A stretch of DNA of 64,000 nt from an uncultured Erysipelotrichaceae bacterium (GTDB taxonomy: Bacteria > Bacillota_I > Bacilli_A > Erysipelotrichales > Erysipelotrichaceae), in assembly GCA_944327105.1 (NCBI GenBank), contig CALVGN010000052.1:1-64000 (forward strand). Reading direction: 5' to 3'. Under the pieces are notes generated by a model. The model worked only from the letters and a program-made list of their open reading frames with translations, did no database searches and was not told the origin of the DNA. Every line of letters begins with the position of its first letter. The first letter of the stretch is position 1. This document shows positions 44,525 through 54,530 of the stretch, in pieces. The position numbers and the translations under genes were made by a program.

Positions 44525-46927
44525 ATGGCCAACGCATTCGATCATCGAACCATTGAAACCAAATGGCAGCACTATTGGCAAACGCATCAATCGTTTAAAA
44601 CCGATACCCGTGATTTCAGCAAACCCAAATATTATGTTTTGGATATGTTCCCTTATCCAAGTGGACAGGGACTTCATGTCGGTCATCCGGAAGGCTATAC
44701 CGCCAGTGATATCGTCGCCCGTAAAAAACGCATGGAAGGCTACAATGTGTTGCATCCCATGGGTTTTGATGCATTTGGTTTGCCAGCCGAGCAATATGCC
44801 ATCAAAACCGGTAACAATCCGATGGGCTTTACCCAACGTAATATCGATAACTTTACCCGGCAATTGAAAGCATTGGGCTTTTCCTATGACTGGGATCGTG
44901 CCATCTCTACGGCAGATCCATCCTTTTACAAGTGGACCCAATGGATCTTCATCCAGCTGTTTAATGCGGGTTTGGCCAAATGCGTGGAAATGCCGGTCAA
45001 CTGGTGTGAAGAATTAGGCACTGTATTGGCCAATGATGAGATCATTGACGGCAAAAGTGAACGCGGCGGCTATCCGGTCGTGCGTAAAAACATGCGTCAG
45101 TGGATCATGGATATCCCAGCGTATGCTGAAAAACTATTGGATAATCTGGATGAGTTGGATTGGCCGGAATCAACAAAAGAAATGCAACGCAACTGGATCG
45201 GTAAAAGTGTCGGGGCCAATGTGATCTTCACCGTGGATGGTAGCGACCATACCTTTACGGTATTTACCACCCGTTGCGATACATTGTTTGGTGCCACATA
45301 TTGTGTGCTTTCCCCGGAACATCATCTGGTCAATACCATCACGAGTGCTGATCAAAAAGAAGCGGTCGAAGCTTATCAGAAAGCGTGTGCACTTAAAAGT
45401 GAACTGGAACGCACGGAATTGAATAAAAACAAGACCGGTGTGTTTACCGGCGCGTATGCAATCAATCCGGTCAATGGTAAAAAGATCCCGATCTGGATCG
45501 CCGACTATGTGTTAGCCACTTACGGAACTGGTGCGATCATGGCCGTTCCGGCCCATGATGAGCGGGATTATGAATTTGCCAAGAAATTCAATATCGATAT
45601 CATCCCAGTCATCGAAGGTGGAAATGTTCAAGAAGCGGCGTATACCGGAGATGGGATCCATATCAATTCCGGTTTTATCAATGGTTTGAACAAGCAAGAT
45701 GCCATTGACACGATGATCGAATGGTTACATCAGCATGGTTGTGGTGAAAAGAAGATCAATTATCGTTTAAGAGAATGGATCTTCGCCCGTCAGCGCTATT
45801 GGGGTGAACCGATCCCCATCATCCACTATGATGATGGCACCATCGGTGTCGTGGATAACGGCGATCTTCCACTGGTCTTACCTGAGTTGGATGATTATGG
45901 ACCAAGTAAGACCGGTGCCCCATTGGATAAAGCCACGGATTGGGTCAATGTGACCTACCATGGCAAAACCGGTAAGCGTGAAACCAGCACCATGCCGGGT
46001 TCTGCTGGCAGCAGCTGGTATTTCATGCGCTATATCGATCCCAATAACGATCAAGCCTTTGCGGATAAAGAACTATTGGATCATTGGCTGCCGGTCGATC
46101 TATATATCGGTGGCAGTGAGCATGCGGTCGGCCATTTGCTGTACTCCCGATTCTGGACAGAATTTTTGCATGATCAAGGTTATACGGATGTGAAGGAACC
46201 ATTCCATAAACTGGTCCATCAAGGCATGATCTTAGGCGCCAATGGCGAAAAGATGAGTAAATCCAGAGGCAATGTCGTTAATCCGGATGAGATCATCAAT
46301 GAATATGGTGCCGATACTTTACGTGTCTATGAAATGTTCATGGGTCCATTGCAGGCTTCCAAACCCTGGAGCGAACAAGGCGTGGAAGGGGCACACCGCT
46401 GGCTTGAACGTGTCTATCGTTTGGTGGAAGATACCAATCAAAAATTGGTTGAAACCAATGATGGCAAGTTAGATCGCAGCTTTAACGTGATGGTGGAAAA
46501 AGTATCCAAGGATATCGATAATCTGGATTTCAATACCGCCATCAGTGCAATGATGATCTTTGTCAATGACTGCTATAAACAGGAAACCATCTATAAACCC
46601 TATATCGTGGATTTTGTCACCATGCTTTCTGTGTTTGCACCACACTTAGGCGCTGAGATGTATGAAATGTTAGGTGGCAACGATGATTTAACTTATTGCA
46701 AGTGGCCAAGTTATGATCCAAGTAAATTGGTGGTCGATACCCATACGGTAGTGGTACAGGTCAATGGTAAAGTCAGAGGTAAATTTGATGTCAGCAATGA
46801 TACCGATGATACAACCATTGAAACCATGGCCAAACAATTGGAAGCTGTGAAGAAGTATACCGATGGTCAAACCATCAAAAAGGTAATCGTGGTCAAATCC
46901 AAGATCGTTAATATCGTTCTCGTTTAG
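44525..46927 (+). CDS. leuS: leucyl-tRNA synthetase
   Basis: Class I synthetase charging tRNA-Leu. HIGH-type motif [15 protein letters not shown] near residue 45, an editing domain with [12 protein letters not shown], and KMSKS in [12 protein letters not shown] near 575. 800 residues is full length. Downstream of the Leu T-box; AAAGGAAAA site before the ATG. An exact palindrome at 46863 encodes DGQTIKK near the C terminus. Confidence 0.97.
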
Positions 46928-46948
46928 TTAAACCATAATAATGAATCA

Positions 46949-46985
46949 AAAGCGATGTTCAGCGATTGAACATCGCTTTTATTAT
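46949..46985 (+). terminator. terminator of leuS
   Basis: AAAAGCGATGTTC / GAACATCGCTTTT stem with AGCGATT loop, followed by ATTATT. Its 3' arm is part of a 25-base direct repeat (46973-46997) found again at 48658. Confidence 0.85.
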
Positions 46986-46997
46986 TGAAAAATACGT
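46973..46997 (+). repeat. 25-bp direct repeat, left copy
   Basis: TCGCTTTTATTATTGAAAAA followed by TACGT, identical to 48658-48682. The similarity continues more loosely on both sides. The two copies bracket 1.66 kb that contains the frameshifted lipoprotein gene. Confidence 0.85.
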
Positions 46998-47535
46998 GCA
47001 ATCCTTGTTGTACAAGTATCGTTGAAAATGTTTTCAAATATAATCATTATAAGAGGTATCTAAACTTCCGAAATATGTTAAAAACGAAGGTAAGAGCACA
47101 TCGTTGACTCTTTTCTTTAAATTGGTCCAACCATATAACCCGCATTTGTTCTATCGAACATTTCCAACAATCAAAAATTGAACAGAATTCAATCAATACA
47201 TACGTTAATTGACGTCGATTTCTATTGATATGCCATTTTTCAACGGTATTGAAGTATCGATGGCCATGTAATTTGACTTCTTTTGGTTGGCACCATGGGT
47301 GGATGCAGTAGACGAAATATAATCATGGCTGTTCAGACAGTAGGTTCACATCAAGTTAATACGTTTTTAAATCGTTAACAGACTAAACGACTGAATAGGA
47401 AATCCGTGGTTTTGATAAAAGTAAGGGATTTACTCATCTGAAAGGAGCCCTGGTTATTAAAAATGTCGCGGGTCATTCAATTTGCCTTCAGCTATTTATA
47501 ATTCGGCTTTAACATATCCTGCGGAGGTTCGAGAA
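46998..47535. other. AT-rich intergenic DNA with a cre-like site
   Basis: About 540 bases with no convincing gene. A palindrome TGAAAATGTTTTCA (47023-47036), close to the CcpA cre consensus, is followed at once by TATAAT (47039-47044). It also contains one near-copy of the iterated palindrome (TTGGTCCAACCAT, 47122). Otherwise nothing recognised. Confidence 0.5.
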
Positions 47536-48527
47536 GTGGAGCCTAAACGAATTTTAAAGGTACTGGTTTGCTTCAACTTTATTTTATTCGGCTGTCAAAC
47601 TCACCAACAATTAAATGGTTCTGTTGACTTTGATTCGGCATATTATTTTTCCTACTATTGGCCATACGAAAATGATGATTCAACTTACACATTTGCATCG
47701 TTTGACAAAGCTGGCGAGATGGTACAATCCAGACTTTTAAATTTAACGGAGATATTGCCAATAACAGTTTTTTTCCATCCAAAGGCAAAATCTATATGCA
47801 CGCCTTTGGAGGATTAGTTGAATATGATATTTTAAAAGGAAAACTTTCTGTTTTGGTTTCCGATGATGTGGTATCGCATGTTTTTCTTTCGCACAATGAC
47901 TCATTGTACTACATCATTCAACGTGTTAGAACTGCGGATGATCCGTTGCAATTTGAATTCTATGAATATAATTTAGAAAAACAACGCCACGTGTTGCTTC
48001 ACACATTTGATTTTATTGTTTCCAATTATGTGGTTGCGAATGAGTATGTCTATGTTATTGAATCGGCATCCGATCAACAACAAAATCGTTTATATCAGTA
48101 CGCATTGGCTGATTTTACTTTACTCGACGTAAAGAATGTTGAAAGCTCTTCAAATTTAGGTTGTGTTGATGAGGAGGTTTATCTATGTGAGTCGGATTCA
48201 ATCACTGATCTTGGGTCAAATGAAGTGTACACTATGATCGATCCAGTGATATATACTGATCAATTACTAAAACATTATGATCAGGCACTCTATAGTTTGG
48301 AAGATCCGATGAGTGGAACTTGTATACTGCGCAAAAATGGAGAAACAGTGCGAACTTTTGAGCAGTGTGATGGATATCAAGATGTTGCCGGGGATTATAT
48401 TATGATTCAATTGGATAAAATTTATTATCGCTATGATTTAAGTACTGACTCGTTGCAGCAATTAGAATTGGATGATCCAAATATCGATATTCATCACACT
48501 TATATCGTGAACAATCTTGATATGTAA
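47536..48527 (+). pseudogene. frameshifted lipoprotein gene
   Basis: A GTG at 47536 after GCGGAGG begins a short lipoprotein signal (lipobox ILFGC). The frame runs to 47817, but from about 47730 the +2 frame reads sensible protein (FNGDIANNSFF, PSKGKIYMHAFGG) and continues to 48527, whose apparent ATG start is at 47796. One indel near the TTTTAAATTT run would join them into a protein of about 330 residues. The body has repeating Gly/Tyr/Asp-rich strands like a beta-propeller. No family recognised. Bracketed by the 25-bp direct repeats. Confidence 0.6.
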
Positions 48528-48657
48528 TGCAGACGATGGAAACTTATATTGATTATTTTTAGCATCGTTTTTAAAAGATGAGCATATGGCTTGACCAAAA
48601 TATATAGCAATATACACAACTTTCAACACCGGTGAAAATGTGTCGTATATTTGAATC

Positions 48658-48682
48658 TCGCTTTTATTATTGAAAAATACGT
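48658..48682 (+). repeat. 25-bp direct repeat, right copy
   Basis: Identical to 46973-46997, which includes the leuS terminator arm. This copy has no gene terminator context, suggesting it is a duplicated remnant of the leuS 3' region. Confidence 0.85.
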
Positions 48683-48694
48683 AGAAATGATGTT

Positions 48695-48811
48695 GTGAAA
48701 GAAACTATTTGGTCTTCATTTGCAACAAATCTGCACTCTGCTATTTCTGGAATGCTAATAATGTCTATACTCGCATTTATCTGGACATTGAAGTTGCATA
48801 AAGAATTCTAA
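48695..48811 (+). CDS. possible 38-residue membrane peptide
   Basis: A GTG-started frame encoding a short N-terminal polar part, one strong hydrophobic segment (ISGMLIMSILAFIW) and a basic tail ending KLHKEF. The layout is like small toxin or holin-like peptides, but the ribosome site is weak and there is no family match, so it may be chance. The rest of the 48528-49075 gap shows nothing else except the cre-like site and promoter of the peptide gene. Confidence 0.2.
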   Translation: MKETIWSSFATNLHSAISGMLIMSILAFIWTLKLHKEF

Positions 48812-48995
48812 ACATGCACTCTGATTAAAGTTAAACAATGTAAATTTACTTTGAATGTATATTATTTTGATGTAACGATTATTGGCTTTTGCTTTGAAAG
48901 TCGTTGCTTCCTTTTTCTGTTATTTGCTGAATTAATCAACTTCTCTATCTGTGCCATTTGAGTTGTTTGTTAATAGATAAATTACACCAACAGAA

Positions 48996-49009
48996 TGAAA
49001 ACGTTTTCA
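48996..49009. promoter_or_regulatory. cre-like palindrome upstream of the precursor peptide
   Basis: TGAAAACGTTTTCA is a perfect palindrome matching the CcpA cre consensus. It lies about 40 bases upstream of the -10 TATAAA (49049-49054) of the peptide gene, so carbon-catabolite control by CcpA is possible. Binding is inferred. Confidence 0.55.
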
Positions 49010-49048
49010 TAACGGTTTCGATTTCTTATTTTGTCCCTTTATTTCTGT

Positions 49049-49054
49049 TATAAA
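49049..49054 (+). promoter_or_regulatory. -10 element of the precursor peptide gene
   Basis: TATAAA 21 bases before the start codon; the -35 (TTATTT region near 49026) is poor. Confidence 0.4.
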
Positions 49055-49075
49055 ATATCCACAGGAGGTTTCTAT

Positions 49076-49153
49076 ATGTGCGAGTTCATTGAAATTGTGG
49101 TAGATGATGGCGAGATGGATTATGCATGCACCATCCGTACCCAACGCGCATAA
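49076..49153 (+). CDS. probable RiPP precursor peptide (25 residues)
   Basis: A 25-codon gene with an excellent ribosome site (ACAGGAGG, 8 bases upstream). The peptide starts MCEFIEIVVDDGEMD and ends YACTIRTQRA. The N-terminal half is hydrophobic/acidic, like a leader. The C-terminal part has Tyr17, Cys18, Thr19 and Thr22 as candidate modified residues. The second residue is also Cys. It lies 41 bases before a radical SAM/SPASM gene and is followed by a strong hairpin terminator, a layout typical of ribosomally made, modified peptides. The precursor call is inferred from context; no known precursor family recognised. Confidence 0.7.
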   Translation: MCEFIEIVVDDGEMDYACTIRTQRA

Positions 49154-49156
49154 TTG

Positions 49157-49188
49157 AATAATACTGCTATATAGCAGTATTATTTTTT
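49157..49188 (+). terminator. attenuator-like terminator between precursor and maturase
   Basis: A 28-base perfect palindrome (AATAATACTGCTAT and its complement) followed by a T-run. It would leave most transcripts carrying only the precursor, with partial readthrough into the maturase. Confidence 0.8.
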
Positions 49189-49194
49189 AAGAAT

Positions 49195-50499
49195 ATGATT
49201 GAATACGATTTACATAACTGTATCACTTACAGAGACGAACAATATTACTATATTTTTAATCCTTATACAATTGGAAGTATTCGAATTCCTAATGTGGGTT
49301 CTGTTACCGAAAGCATAAAGAATTTTGGCGTACCTACACTTTATGAAAATGGTATTCTAATAGACGGCAACTTAAATGGTAATTCGATAGCGAAATTTCT
49401 ACTTAATAAAGCAAAATATGATAAAAAAAGATTGTATTTAACCGATGCAATTACGTATAAGTGTAATTTGAACTGTGTTTACTGTATGCAACAAAACACA
49501 TTTAAAGGTATTAATCGCATTACACCAGTAGAAAAAGTTGCTATTTGGGAACGTCTATTTAAAATGAGTAACTGCGAACTGCTAAATGTTTGTCTGTTTG
49601 GAGGAGAGCCTTTCTACGATTATAATTATCTTTTTACTTTGCTAAATCAGGCAAAAAGTAAAAATTTAAATATCCAATATTCTGCTGTTACAAATGGAAC
49701 ATTGATTAATGATGATACAATATCTTTAATTAATAATTACTCCATTAATCATATTCAAATTACAATAGATGGTCCAGCTTATGTCCACGACAAAAGAAGA
49801 ATCGGTAATAAAGCAAAAAATACATTTGAGCAAATAATTAATAATATTTTAAAGCTTCTTGAAAATACTGAATGTGAAATTGTATTAAATACGGTATTAG
49901 ATCGTAATAATAAAGATACTTATATTGAATTAGTTAAATTTTTAAATTCAAAATTTTCAAAATTTTGTTTTTCAAGTCAAGCTCGTATTATTTTTAATTT
50001 AGGAATGGAATGTCATCCATATAACAAGAGTGATTATACAAATGAAAGTATTATTAAAGATTTGATAGAGTATCACAAAATATATTTGAAGTACTTACAA
50101 GAGCTTTTATCATTAGGAAACACTATTCGTTTTGTTATGCCAAATGGTTTATGCATAGCAAAGCATAGATATGAGTATCTTATTGCTCCTGATGGGTGTA
50201 TTTATAAATGTATTACAGGTTTAGGACTGAAAGAGTTTAGACTAGGATATTTGAATGATATCTATAAGGATGCCTTACCATTGTTGCTTAAGGAAAGTCA
50301 GTTCATAGAAAAAGAATATGCACAATGCAATAATTGCAAATATCAAGCTCTTTGTAATGGTGGGTGTTATTACAGCGCTTTTATAAACCAAGCTAGTATT
50401 GATTGTCGTAAACAATTATTTGATGCAGTGCTCGAAGAATACGTAAAACTGTCTTGTAGTGTAGTGAAAACGAAAAATGGATATTACAAGGGGGTATAA
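49195..50499 (+). CDS. radical SAM/SPASM peptide maturase
   Basis: A 434-residue enzyme expected to modify the upstream peptide by radical chemistry (for example thioether or carbon-carbon links). An N-terminal region of about 80 residues may bind the leader. The SAM cluster motif CNLNCVYC is at residues 90-97. The SPASM region has C335, C339 and the diagnostic C378-x2-C381-x5-C387-x3-C391 pattern plus a final Cys near 404, for auxiliary Fe-S clusters. The gene is very AT-rich and lacks the native palindrome. No strong ribosome site precedes the ATG just after the attenuator, in keeping with low expression. Product chemistry cannot be predicted. Confidence 0.92.
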   Translation: MIEYDLHNCITYRDEQYYYIFNPYTIGSIRIPNVGSVTESIKNFGVPTLYENGILIDGNLNGNSIAKFLLNKAKYDKKRLYLTDAITYKCNLNCVYCMQQNTFKGINRITPVEKVAIWERLFKMSNCELLNVCLFGGEPFYDYNYLFTLLNQAKSKNLNIQYSAVTNGTLINDDTISLINNYSINHIQITIDGPAYVHDKRRIGNKAKNTFEQIINNILKLLENTECEIVLNTVLDRNNKDTYIELVKFLNSKFSKFCFSSQARIIFNLGMECHPYNKSDYTNESIIKDLIEYHKIYLKYLQELLSLGNTIRFVMPNGLCIAKHRYEYLIAPDGCIYKCITGLGLKEFRLGYLNDIYKDALPLLLKESQFIEKEYAQCNNCKYQALCNGGCYYSAFINQASIDCRKQLFDAVLEEYVKLSCSVVKTKNGYYKGV

Positions 50500-50506
50500 G
50501 AACCAA

Positions 50507-51193
50507 ATGCTCCCGTTAATTGAGATTAATAATATTTCTAAGTCATTTAAGGACAATACTATAATTTACAACTGTAGTTTTGAATTCCGTGGCAGCAATA
50601 TGTATCTGATTCATGGAGATAATGGCAGTGGTAAGTCTACTTTGATCCGCATAATGACTAATCTGCTTTCTCCTGATGAAGGTCATGTGTATTATAATCA
50701 TTTCACTTTTGAAAAAGATCAGAAAAAAATCCTGCAATCGCTTGGTGTGATTCTCAATGATGATCGTTGTCTATATTACAAATTGTCTGCTTGGGAGAAT
50801 GTGTACTATGCCGGGCGAATCTTTGGTGTTTCAAAATCCATACTTCACTCGCGTATGACAACCTTGTTTGATTTGTTTGATTTGCCAAAGGATAAAACGC
50901 TCATCGAAAATTTTTCGTCTGGTATGAAGCGAAAAGTTGCCATTGTTAGAGGTTTAGTTCATCAGCCGTTATTTCTTCTGGCGGATGAGCCATTGAATAA
51001 TTTGGATGAAGAATCTCGATTTAAATGCATCCAAGTTTTCAAGCAACTGGCACTTAACGGATCGGTAGTTATCGTTGCCTCTCATATTATCGATGAGGGC
51101 TACCGGGATTTATTCGATGTGATTTTAGAAATGAAAGATGGGAAACTGCATGATTTATCTTTACAAGGAAATTCTGGAATCACTTCGTTATAA
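50507..51193 (+). CDS. ABC transporter ATPase of the peptide locus
   Basis: A 228-residue ABC ATPase: Walker A GDNGSGKST, signature NFSSGMKRK, Walker B LFLLADEPLNNLD, H-loop ASHII. ATG 50507 is chosen because it follows an AAGGGGG site; a start at 50477 overlapping the maturase is possible. It powers the two permeases that follow, probably to export the modified peptide or give self-protection. Confidence 0.9.
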   Translation: MLPLIEINNISKSFKDNTIIYNCSFEFRGSNMYLIHGDNGSGKSTLIRIMTNLLSPDEGHVYYNHFTFEKDQKKILQSLGVILNDDRCLYYKLSAWENVYYAGRIFGVSKSILHSRMTTLFDLFDLPKDKTLIENFSSGMKRKVAIVRGLVHQPLFLLADEPLNNLDEESRFKCIQVFKQLALNGSVVIVASHIIDEGYRDLFDVILEMKDGKLHDLSLQGNSGITSL

Positions 51194-51866
51194 AGTTATT
51201 TGGATCAATCTGTTTTTGATTCCGTTCTTTCAGTTTGCGCCTTTTGTTTTGATGAGTGCCGATCCCACGCAGGTGTTGATTGGACTGATATGCTGGTATG
51301 TTTTGACACAGTACTTTTTTGTGATTCCCAATTGCTTTGAGGATGAACGGATTAATGGTACGATCGTTAACTTATTGACGTTTCCGGTTTCGGTCGTTCG
51401 TTTACTCATAAGCAAAGGGATATGGCTGGCCTTTCAGACGATTGCCATTGTTACTTTTACTTTATTTCTATTTTTGCTTTTCAATATCACAGTCAAAGAT
51501 CTTCCATTATTGTTGGCTTTGGTGGTTTTTGACTGTTTTGCGATGTTTTGTTGTTCGGTTTTTTATCTTGGACTGGTGTTGCATATCCAACGGTTTTCGC
51601 GAATCAATGGATTCATTCAGGATGTACTAGGCTTTTTTAGTGGATATACTTTTGATATCCGTAAGTTCCCAATCGGTTTGCGTTTGATTTCCTATCTGAT
51701 TCCATTGACGTATATCATTATCATTGCACGTCACTCAACCGTTTTTACACCAGTTGCTTTGATGATGGTTACCATTTTGTCTTTGATGCTTTTGTTTTTA
51801 GGGCTTCATATGGTCAATCAGAAAATTCAGAAACTGAGATCGAGTGGGGAATGGAACGTATGGTAA
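51150..51866 (+). CDS. ABC-2-like permease subunit 1
   Basis: A 238-residue membrane protein with about six helices and a periplasm-side FEDERINGTIVNLLTFPVS motif typical of ABC-2 permeases. The gene overlaps the ATPase by 44 bases, so it is coupled. A reading from 51138 is also possible. Confidence 0.85.
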   Translation: MIYLYKEILESLRYKVIWINLFLIPFFQFAPFVLMSADPTQVLIGLICWYVLTQYFFVIPNCFEDERINGTIVNLLTFPVSVVRLLISKGIWLAFQTIAIVTFTLFLFLLFNITVKDLPLLLALVVFDCFAMFCCSVFYLGLVLHIQRFSRINGFIQDVLGFFSGYTFDIRKFPIGLRLISYLIPLTYIIIIARHSTVFTPVALMMVTILSLMLLFLGLHMVNQKIQKLRSSGEWNVW

Positions 51867-52657
51867 AACATTTTGCGTTATTCATCATTTCTTTGAAGAC
51901 CAGTATTCGCTATAAGACGACTTATCTTTCATGGCTGTTGAATCTGATCAGCATGATATTGCCTGCTTTGGCTATTCTTTTTTTCGGTGATTTGGCATTG
52001 CGGTTATTGGGTTATGTAAATGCGGATCAATATTTGATGTTTTTAGTGATATCGCTTGCCTATTGGGGATTCATCGAATCCTTTTGGAGCGGTGTATTTG
52101 ATCTTAGAGACATGATGCGAAGCGGGATCATTGAACAGGTATTGCTCTATCCTTTGAATCCAATAGAATTTGTGTTTTCGAATTCCATTCAAAGCATTAT
52201 TTCTGCATTGATTCAATCGGTCCCATTATTGATCATTAGCTGTATTTATTATTCGGTCACGGTTAGTTTTGGACATATTTTGATTTGCGGTGTCGTTGTG
52301 ATCCTATCATTGTTTGCCAATATGGTCATGACATTATTGCTTTGTTCGATTGGATTAGAGACAGCAGAAAGTGATCAAGTTATCTCCATCATCGCCAATA
52401 TTGCACCGTTTTTATGTGGCCTTTTCATTCCGATTTCGATGCTTCCTCAATTGTTTCTTCCCGTTTCCTTGTTGTTTCCTTTTACCTATGCATTGGAACT
52501 ATTACGTTATTATGTTTTTGATGTCCCAACGTTTTTAATGGTTGATCAAACGTGGATTGCGATGATTACGACAACGATGCTATTTCTTGTGATTGGAATG
52601 ATTTTATACCGATTGTATTTGAATAAAGCACGAAAGAGAGGGTTCAACAAATTTTGA
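51851..52657 (+). CDS. ABC-2-like permease subunit 2
   Basis: A 268-residue membrane protein with about six helices, including LRDMMRSGIIEQVLLYPLNPIEF, which parallels the motif in subunit 1, so the two probably form a heterodimer. It overlaps the first permease by 16 bases. The start may instead be the ATG at 51860. No protease gene is present in the locus, so leader removal, if any, must use a host protease. Confidence 0.85.
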   Translation: MERMVKHFALFIISLKTSIRYKTTYLSWLLNLISMILPALAILFFGDLALRLLGYVNADQYLMFLVISLAYWGFIESFWSGVFDLRDMMRSGIIEQVLLYPLNPIEFVFSNSIQSIISALIQSVPLLIISCIYYSVTVSFGHILICGVVVILSLFANMVMTLLLCSIGLETAESDQVISIIANIAPFLCGLFIPISMLPQLFLPVSLLFPFTYALELLRYYVFDVPTFLMVDQTWIAMITTTMLFLVIGMILYRLYLNKARKRGFNKF

Positions 52658-52703
52658 TTTGTAGTCCTACACCAATTGCTTTGAAAATTCTTTGAAACTC
52701 ATT

Positions 52704-52731: not shown

Positions 52732-52765
52732 CAATCAAACCAAGTTGTGGTTTACTGAAACCACC

Positions 52766-52946
52766 TTGCAATAGAGGCGCGAATGATAAGAGTAGTGCCG
52801 GGAGAGAAAGGTCGTTACTTTCGTTACCATCCCGCTTGCATGAAAGGAGATTTCGCCGAAACCATCCATGGATACGACCAATGGATGAAGTTGGGCTGTC
52901 AATGAACAATTGGCAGACTCTCACGAAAGTGATGGAGCTATTGTCT
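52766..52946 (+). promoter_or_regulatory. lysine riboswitch (L-box) aptamer
   Basis: Conserved L-box blocks are visible in order: AGAGGCGCGA then AAGAGTA, AAAGGAG with CGCCGAA, GGGCTGTC with GGCAGACT, and a closing GAAAGTGATGGAG. P1 can form from GCAATAG (52768-52774) and CTATTGT (52938-52944). It precedes a terminator hairpin and an AGCS-type symporter gene, so lysine should switch that operon off. Family identification is strong; transport of lysine by the target is inferred. Confidence 0.9.
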
Positions 52947-52968
52947 ATGATTTGGTATAGACCATGTA

Positions 52969-53008
52969 TGGAGCAATAGCATTCGCTGTTGCTCCATTTT
53001 CACATTTT
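52969..53008 (+). terminator. expression-platform terminator of the lysine riboswitch
   Basis: TGGAGCAATAGC / GCTGTTGCTCCA stem with ATTC loop and T-rich tail. Its 5' arm repeats the GCAATAG of P1, suggesting competition between P1 and the terminator. Confidence 0.85.
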
Positions 53009-53051
53009 CGTTTTATCCCTTGAACGGCAAGGCAGGAAAGGATAGAACATC

Positions 53052-54530
53052 ATGACTCAGTTTCTCAACACACTCAATGACCTGCTTTGGGGTCCACCAC
53101 TCATCATTTTGATGTTATTTACCGGTGCCTACTTCACCATTCGCAGCGGCTTCTTCCAGGTCGTCCATATCAAAACCATCTTCTCCCATACGTTAGGGAT
53201 CCTATTCAAAGGCAAAGATGATGCGGATGAATCCAAAAAGGGTTTACTGACTCCCTTTGAAACCATTGCGACCGCAGTCGGTTCCACCGTGGGTTATGGG
53301 AATATCGCTGGTGTGGCCACCGCAGTGACCACCGGTGGTCCCGGTGCTGTGTTTTGGATGTGGTTGACCGCATTTTTAGGAATGATGATCAAACAAGTCG
53401 AAGTGACCTTAGCCGTCTATTTCAGGAGAACCGATGAAGAAGGCAATCCTTATGGCGGCCCGACCTACTACATGGAACGAGGGTTAGGTCAAGTGCATCA
53501 TTGGGGAAAGAAGTGGATCATTCCGGCGGTGGTTTTCGGTTGCGGGATATTCTCTACATTCTTCATTACCGCCAGCAACTATACCACCAGTGAAGTGATC
53601 GCCAATTCATTCCATATCCCGCAGGAAATCGCTGCATTTGGCATCCTATGTGCCGTCTATTTTCTCGTTTGGGGTGGTGCAAAACGCCTCAGTCGGATTT
53701 TCACGAAACTGGTTCCGATCATGAGTATCGGATATTTGATCGCCGGTTTGATCGTGATCGGCATGCATATCGATAACTTACTTCCAACATTGTCAGCGAT
53801 TTTTACCAATGCCTTTACCGGCACAGCTGCCATGGGCGGGTTTGCCGGTGCGGCCGTGGCACAGGTCATTTCCACCGGTATGGCGCGCAGTGTTTACAGC
53901 AATGAAGCCGGTTGGGGTACCAGTCCGATGGTCCATGCTTCCGCCAAGACTTGGCATCCGGTAGAGCAAGGTTTATGGGGCAGTTTTGAAGTGTTTGTCG
54001 ATACATTTATCGTGTGCTCCATCACCGCGTTGACGGTATTGATCAGCGGGGAATGGACCTCTGGTGCGACCAATGCCACATTGGCACTGAATGTATTTAC
54101 CGATTCGTTTGGCACGATCGGTATGGTCTATATCGTTGCGACCATGCTGGTATTCCAGTTGACCACCAGTGGTGGATGGTATGTCTATTACCAAGCAGTA
54201 TTGCGTCATCTGGCGAAAAACAATCCCAAGCTGAAGAAAACATTATTGACGATCTTCCGTAATTTCTATGCGATCCCTGGTTTTTTGATCACGTTATTCA
54301 TTCTGCATGTTTCTGATCTTTCGATCTGGACATTGGTGGATATCACATCAGCGATCCCGACATTTATCAATGTGGCAGTGATCCTGCTTTTGAGCAATAC
54401 GTATTTCAAATTACTCAAAGACTACAAGGCACGAGTGTTCCATCAAGGGGAAGTGGATCCAAATTTTGCATTATTCTACGAAGATAAGCCGGAAGTCAAA
54501 GCAGCGTTACAACGCGGGGAGGATATTTAA
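53052..54530 (+). CDS. AGCS-family amino acid:cation symporter
   Basis: A 492-residue sodium/amino-acid symporter of the alanine or glycine:cation family. About ten helices are present, and family motifs GSTVGYGNIAGVATAVTTGGPGAVFWMW and ARSVYSNEAGWGTSPM are seen in part. AGCS proteins classically carry Ala or Gly. Here the gene sits behind a lysine riboswitch, so lysine or a related compound is a plausible substrate (inference). The downstream amidohydrolase begins at the next base after its stop, so they are one operon. Confidence 0.93.
   Translation: MTQFLNTLNDLLWGPPLIILMLFTGAYFTIRSGFFQVVHIKTIFSHTLGILFKGKDDADESKKGLLTPFETIATAVGSTVGYGNIAGVATAVTTGGPGAVFWMWLTAFLGMMIKQVEVTLAVYFRRTDEEGNPYGGPTYYMERGLGQVHHWGKKWIIPAVVFGCGIFSTFFITASNYTTSEVIANSFHIPQEIAAFGILCAVYFLVWGGAKRLSRIFTKLVPIMSIGYLIAGLIVIGMHIDNLLPTLSAIFTNAFTGTAAMGGFAGAAVAQVISTGMARSVYSNEAGWGTSPMVHASAKTWHPVEQGLWGSFEVFVDTFIVCSITALTVLISGEWTSGATNATLALNVFTDSFGTIGMVYIVATMLVFQLTTSGGWYVYYQAVLRHLAKNNPKLKKTLLTIFRNFYAIPGFLITLFILHVSDLSIWTLVDITSAIPTFINVAVILLLSNTYFKLLKDYKARVFHQGEVDPNFALFYEDKPEVKAALQRGEDI

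Follow-up and report, generated by a model that had tools for sequence, protein, structure and literature searches.

Among ribosomally synthesised and post-translationally modified peptides (RiPPs), very short precursors modified by SPASM-type radical S-adenosylmethionine (rSAM) enzymes are represented by PqqA, mycofactocin and streptide. A second set, the Clo7bot/CefB/TIGR04463/geopeptide group, combines rSAM enzymes of about 430-450 residues carrying a seven-Cys SPASM domain with longer, Cys-rich precursors encoded directly upstream and with transporters encoded downstream. Ranthipeptides, i.e. CteA/CteB and freyrasin PapA/PapB, contain non-alpha thioethers and were found in a recent rumen survey via the SCIFF precursor model TIGR03973 (PMC13289728). 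The NxxC radical SAM RiPPs (RaS-RiPPs) of streptococci have a short precursor in which one beta-thioether connects a Cys with an acceptor located three positions before it (PMC8326336, PMC13361665); in NxxcA, NxxcB forms this bond between Cys23 and the Asn20 beta carbon (PMC8326336). Here we describe a locus within a 64,000-nucleotide stretch of DNA (the window; contig CALVGN010000052.1) from an uncultured Erysipelotrichaceae bacterium, probably of the gut to judge by its relatives, in which a gene for a 25-residue peptide is followed by genes for a SPASM maturase and an ATP-binding cassette (ABC) exporter. We propose this locus being a minimal RiPP pathway composed of the 25-residue precursor, the maturase, a thioether at Cys18 and export of the ABC-2 type, to which we assign a probability of roughly 0.72. 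The proposal builds on the ribosome-binding signal of an open reading frame (ORF) hardly expected by chance, a complete and invariant set of catalytic Cys residues, the similarity of the enzyme to peptide maturase models and to CteB, and the conservation of the gene block and of the layout.

Comparison with described systems

The maturase (434 residues, 49195-50499, + strand) has the size, the domain composition and the gene neighbourhood of the Clo7bot/CefB/TIGR04463/geopeptide enzymes, and the profiles of this group align over most of its length; in contrast to the precursors found there, the window precursor has 25 residues and one core Cys. Its six closest NCBIfam models all describe peptide maturases, several of them thioether-forming: CefB (NF038107) as best match with 138 bits versus a cut-off of 600, Clo7bot (TIGR04334) with 116.5 versus 600, a true member scoring 727, TIGR04463 with 114 versus 525, the geopeptide maturase model with 107 versus 400, PapB (NF047865) with 92 versus 340 and the SCIFF maturase model (TIGR03974) with 80 versus 425. 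The comparison with SPASM maturase groups suggested in an original prediction, made from the sequence alone, places the enzyme between CefB, Clo7bot, TIGR04463 and geopeptide, far below each cut-off. Because the best models all score below cut-off, the sequence assigns the maturase to the broad Cys-peptide maturase group but to no named family.

The precursor departs from these families as well. It has just two Cys, unlike Clo7bot peptides, and no Cys at every fifth position as in CefB substrates or any other Cys periodicity; SCIFF ranthipeptides carry six Cys in about 45 residues, and the Cys-x3-Asp/Glu repeats of PapB substrates are missing, a lone CX3E (C2-E6) lying in the presumed leader. 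The resemblance to the NxxC RaS-RiPPs consists in the Cys-to-acceptor spacing within a short peptide; Asp15 replaces Asn, the Rgg/SHP regulator linked to the NxxC loci is missing beside the locus (no Rgg-like gene among the ORFs of 47-53 kb), and the host is not a streptococcus. Compared to PqqA, mycofactocin and streptide, the peptide shows E-x2-Y instead of E-x3-Y and contains neither a C-terminal VY nor Lys-x3-Trp. The original prediction of an undescribed locus holds within NCBIfam and the open literature searched, and the locus appears to represent a genuine branch of an already known class of modified peptides, one that is new but small and rare.

Precursor gene and maturase

The gene order, the start signals, the hairpins and the catalytic motifs can be read directly from the DNA. 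The precursor ORF (49076-49153, + strand) encodes MCEFIEIVVDDGEMDYACTIRTQRA, a peptide of 25 residues with Cys2 and Cys18 as initially described; the Tyr, given before as residue 17, is residue 16. The segment D15-Y-A-C18 is the proposed core. As already suspected from the unfamiliar sequence, the peptide has no match among the NCBIfam, Pfam and PHROGs families. A perfect Shine-Dalgarno (SD) sequence, AGGAGGT (49063-49069, + strand), lies 6 nucleotides upstream of the ATG. The combination of a 6-nucleotide SD, a start codon and an ORF of at least 15 residues occurs 20 times in the window, nearly always at real large genes. Among these cases, the short ORFs starting with ATG are just the precursor and a 66-residue ORF antisense to a gene. 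Dinucleotide shuffles of the upstream region yield an ORF of 20 or more residues led by an SD in 0.4% (ATG) or 0.9% (any start) of cases, and of the 42 window ORFs of at least 200 residues the maturase is the only one preceded within 150 nucleotides by an SD-led, Cys-containing ORF of 12-35 residues. Between precursor and maturase a terminator-like hairpin with a T-run (49156-49188, + strand; -14.5 kcal/mol, z-score -3.8 to -5.6) is found, which is probably a leaky terminator.

The maturase carries the rSAM motif CNLNCVYC (CX3CX2C at 90-97) and the full seven-Cys SPASM pattern (C-x13-G-x4-C, C-x2-C-x5-C-x3-C, C) with Cys 320, 339, 378, 381, 387, 391 and 404, in agreement with its first description as a full radical SAM/SPASM enzyme. 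All three rSAM and seven SPASM Cys residues are invariant across six relatives (alignment A7), and the protein matches Pfam PF04055 (1.4e-16). The nearest solved enzyme by sequence in the PDB is the thioether maturase CteB, which is also the top Foldseek match (5why/5wgg) of the predicted barrel; the structure model is moderate (predicted local distance difference test 67, predicted template modelling score 0.72), residues 1-75 being unmodelled. The N-terminal region is colinear with the N-termini of related maturases in the alignments, and A7 matches TigE (8vpo) from position 4, suggesting a candidate precursor-binding domain (RiPP recognition element). A profile search of the PDB with this region alone gave no match, which, like the unmodelled N-terminus, counts among the weaknesses of the pathway proposed below.

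Relatives on plasmids, on a provirus and within the order

The best-scoring plasmid relatives of the maturase are encoded on two Sarcina sp. JB2 plasmids, p5 and p8, at 27-29% identity. On p5 (L077) GGGGTGA and an ATG are followed by the 20-residue peptide MIILNEKKPLVLIDKCPARA, a hairpin, the maturase and an ABC transporter having no peptidase domain match in Pfam; on p8 (L078) the order is GAGGTGA, ATG, the 20-residue peptide MKLIGKSGLEVDSICGVQIG, a hairpin, the maturase and a major facilitator superfamily (MFS) transporter. Both Sarcina precursors are unannotated in their records. A provirus contig (L100, UViG 2600255062) encodes a 59-residue peptide ending in DDHDVCIIQVGH, again followed by a hairpin and a maturase. 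All three loci share the arrangement of SD, single-Cys micro-ORF, hairpin at the position equivalent to that in the window and maturase, and their maturases are 27-31% identical to the window enzyme. A short precursor gene adjoining a maturase with CX3CX2C and SPASM Cys residues, with this association kept among relatives, is what characterises a RiPP locus of the rSAM/SPASM kind, and the window locus shows both. The original prediction had named the consistent absence of such ORFs beside related maturases as evidence against a RiPP; their presence at these three loci supports the RiPP reading.

The relatives conserve this layout, not the precursor sequence. A single Cys near the end with an Asp at -2 or -3 is found in all four peptides (DYAC, DKC, DSIC, DVC); the endings CGVQIG on p8 and CIIQVG in the provirus are alike, and Arg-Ala closes the peptides of both the window and p5. 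Because Cys2 and Tyr16 of the window precursor are not common to the relatives, they are the less likely cross-link sites, and the comparison favours Cys18 together with Asp15. From the sites proposed before, Cys18 is retained, whereas Cys2 and Tyr are disfavoured and Asp15 (D-x-x-C) is added.

Other relatives have longer Cys-rich precursors at the same place, namely the Clo7bot peptides of Paraclostridium (41-54 residues, L079), SCIFF peptides and a peptide in an Enterococcus phage record. This last record, labelled Enterococcus phage IME_EF3 (L080, 1038-1178; PQ520162), encodes a SPASM maturase with a 46-residue Cys-rich precursor and may be bacterial rather than phage DNA. Upstream of a further related maturase (L102, 684-797; MT839674) we observed a candidate 37-residue precursor, MRIIKNGSDVLDQADCLTINCCSGAVGAFPDEVEDEL. 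In L006 and L016, two further relatives, no precursor is obvious immediately ahead of the maturase. Scanning GTDB contigs for the maturase returned none with the window protein and RUG054 alone with alignment A4, the viral contigs gave no match to the window maturase, to A4 or to a DNA pattern for YACTIRTQR, and searching plasmids and phages for the precursor gave nothing meaningful.

Within the order the maturase is kept in 3 of 316 genomes, the two besides the window genome (G031, G202) belonging to the same family but to a different genus. Maturase, ATPase and both permeases are conserved there at 27-42% identity, and this comparison defines a conserved maturase-exporter block. In G031, stop codons interrupt the maturase, which is also truncated close to its start; the G202 contig, identical in sequence to OMXQ01000080 (RUG054), starts within the maturase gene, and the missing N-terminal half was not found on any other contig. 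G031 additionally contains a second decayed maturase C-terminus with a truncated ATPase (L018, G031:C1:546266-546508) and, elsewhere, another rSAM/SPASM gene preceded by a well-led 31-residue ORF, MVVLKKGEVVKVHCYSIFVCGPCSHLGGCRG, without NCBIfam match (L076, 1080-1175; G031:C1:593185). The exporter occurs without an adjacent maturase in three more genomes (G080, G102, G113); in G113 it is preceded by a strongly SD-led ORF of nine residues, MSTFTDKNA (L048, 2996-3025, minus strand), which is a decayed precursor, a leader peptide or a chance ORF.

Proposed pathway and alternative explanations

In the proposed pathway a strong ribosome site of its own would drive translation of the 25-residue precursor, and the leaky terminator downstream of it would result in more precursor than enzyme being made. 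The maturase would bind the acidic-hydrophobic N-terminal part and modify the C-terminal one by means of the 5'-deoxyadenosyl radical, with abstraction of a hydrogen at the acceptor. Comparison with the relatives suggests the likeliest reaction being the joining of the Cys18 sulfur to the Asp15 beta carbon within D-Y-A-C, a beta-thioether formed with a loss of 2 Da, so that the favoured product shares the non-alpha thioether with the ranthipeptides. The dedicated ABC-2 exporter would then release the peptide, any trimming being left to host peptidases as the pathway has no protease of its own, and the product would probably act between cells, either as a signal or as a narrow-spectrum antimicrobial.

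Several observations weigh against this pathway. Both closest maturase relatives (G031, G202) have lost their 5' end and cannot show a precursor, genus g32 holds decayed or truncated copies of the maturase, and the order-wide search found MCEFIEIVVDDGEMDYACTIRTQRA in no second genome. Weak matches of the 25-mer to short open frames in G098 and G162 were discarded as antisense to ordinary genes, and the remaining ones lie mostly inside long frames. The short ORFs sought upstream of related maturases were found, but the four peptides are too short and too divergent for confident alignment, which leaves their homology unproven. The D-x(1-2)-C feature was noticed post hoc on three loci and has gained one later match (L100). 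Moreover, PapB processes Cys-x3-Asp with the Cys first and rejects the reverse order (PMC9413430), whereas the window precursor has the Asp first, so the chemistry must be NxxC-like and not PapB-like.

The same precursor and enzyme might perform another reaction, which we consider the strongest competitor and yet clearly the less probable course. Examples are an RRR-type Tyr16-Arg21 link, a TQQ-type ether between Thr and Gln, a CteA-type thioether from Cys18 to a Thr and a TvgB-type C-C cyclisation of Val/Ile; Tyr16, Thr19, Arg21, Thr22 and Gln23 are all present in the C-terminal part. Precedents exist: Cys32 of CteA is linked to a downstream Thr, RRR joins Arg to Tyr and TQQ Thr to Gln (PMC8326336), and TvgB makes cyclopropylglycine (PMC9062424). 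The maturase profile (A7) also matches TigE (8vpo), from position 4. In the relatives, however, Tyr16 is missing from all three peptides, the p8 and provirus peptides have no Arg after the Cys, and the one feature common to all four is a Cys preceded by an Asp.

It is improbable that the short ORF is instead the leader peptide of a transcription attenuator governing read-through of the hairpin, with the true substrate encoded elsewhere. The order of a short SD-led ORF, a hairpin with T-run and an operon would suit such a device, as would the nine-residue ORF before the maturase-less G113 exporter, but the predicted fold contains no competing antiterminator, the SPASM enzymes in question require a peptide to act on, no other candidate precursor is nearby, and several relatives (Clo7bot, SCIFF, Enterococcus) have Cys-containing precursors immediately ahead of the maturase. 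Equally improbable is a relic, i.e. a horizontally acquired operon whose product is no longer made. The low GC content of the maturase, the broken and duplicated G031 copies and the retention in just three genomes would fit this reading, but none of the five window genes is damaged, their catalytic motifs are complete and their start signals are good.

Beyond the single locus, the window, both Sarcina plasmids and the provirus may tentatively be grouped, at somewhat below even odds, as an undescribed RiPP subfamily having precursors of 20-25 residues (up to 59), one core Cys in D-x(1-2)-C, a single small thioether ring made by a SPASM enzyme and protease-free export. Annotation would miss these precursors because they are so short; if the proposal is true, RiPP precursors that rank among the smallest known escape present gene callers and the usual cluster rules, and a substrate of 20-25 residues would be a convenient, easily synthesised system for studying thioether radical chemistry.

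Exporter, regulatory elements and genomic context

The three-gene ABC exporter recognised in the original prediction is confirmed by Pfam and NCBIfam as an ATPase with two ABC-2 permeases, all on the + strand. The ATP-binding subunit (50507-51193) matches PF00005 (1.9e-23) and, as best NCBIfam model, a DrrA-type ATPase (124 bits), an alternative start at 50477 overlapping the maturase. Permease 1 (51150-51866, alternative start 51138) has a weak Pfam ABC2_membrane match and permease 2 (51851-52657) matches PF01061 (4e-11); orthologues of both are found in G202 and G031, those of permease 1 beside the maturase. No protease gene is present in 47.5-53 kb, as had been noted before.

Three elements had previously been overlooked, the hairpin described above and two sites upstream of the precursor. 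A candidate extended -10 promoter element, TGTTATAAA (49046-49054, + strand), was recognised by reading the sequence and is absent from the list of the consensus scan. A TTG at 49031 was rejected as precursor start, having no ribosome site and lying upstream of this -10 element. Further upstream, the perfect palindrome ATGAAAACGTTTTCAT (48995-49010), resembling a catabolite-responsive element (cre), fits the pattern WTGNNARCGNWWWCAW, of which it is the single site in the window; with up to two mismatches it occurs at 10 places in the genome versus none for a reversed control. It represents a possible operator of the CcpA/LacI family.

The GC content is 28.6% for the maturase, 46% for the precursor ORF and 41.6% for the window, and the low-GC stretch 46900-52700 suggests acquisition by transfer. 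Upstream of the palindrome, a GTG-started ORF of 38 residues (48695-48811) contains an apparent membrane-spanning stretch (MKETIWSSFATNLHSAISGMLIMSILAFIWTLKLHKEF) and has no clear ribosome site. The region 47482-48527 holds two overlapping frames (111 and 243 residues), of which the first has the lipobox LFGC; they resemble either a single lipoprotein gene interrupted by a frameshift or two separate genes. Downstream of the exporter, a lysine riboswitch (RF00168, 69 bits; 52764-53051) directly precedes a gene for an AgcS-type sodium:amino-acid carrier (53052-54530), which suggests regulation of this carrier by lysine, even though the AgcS name refers to Ala/Gly.

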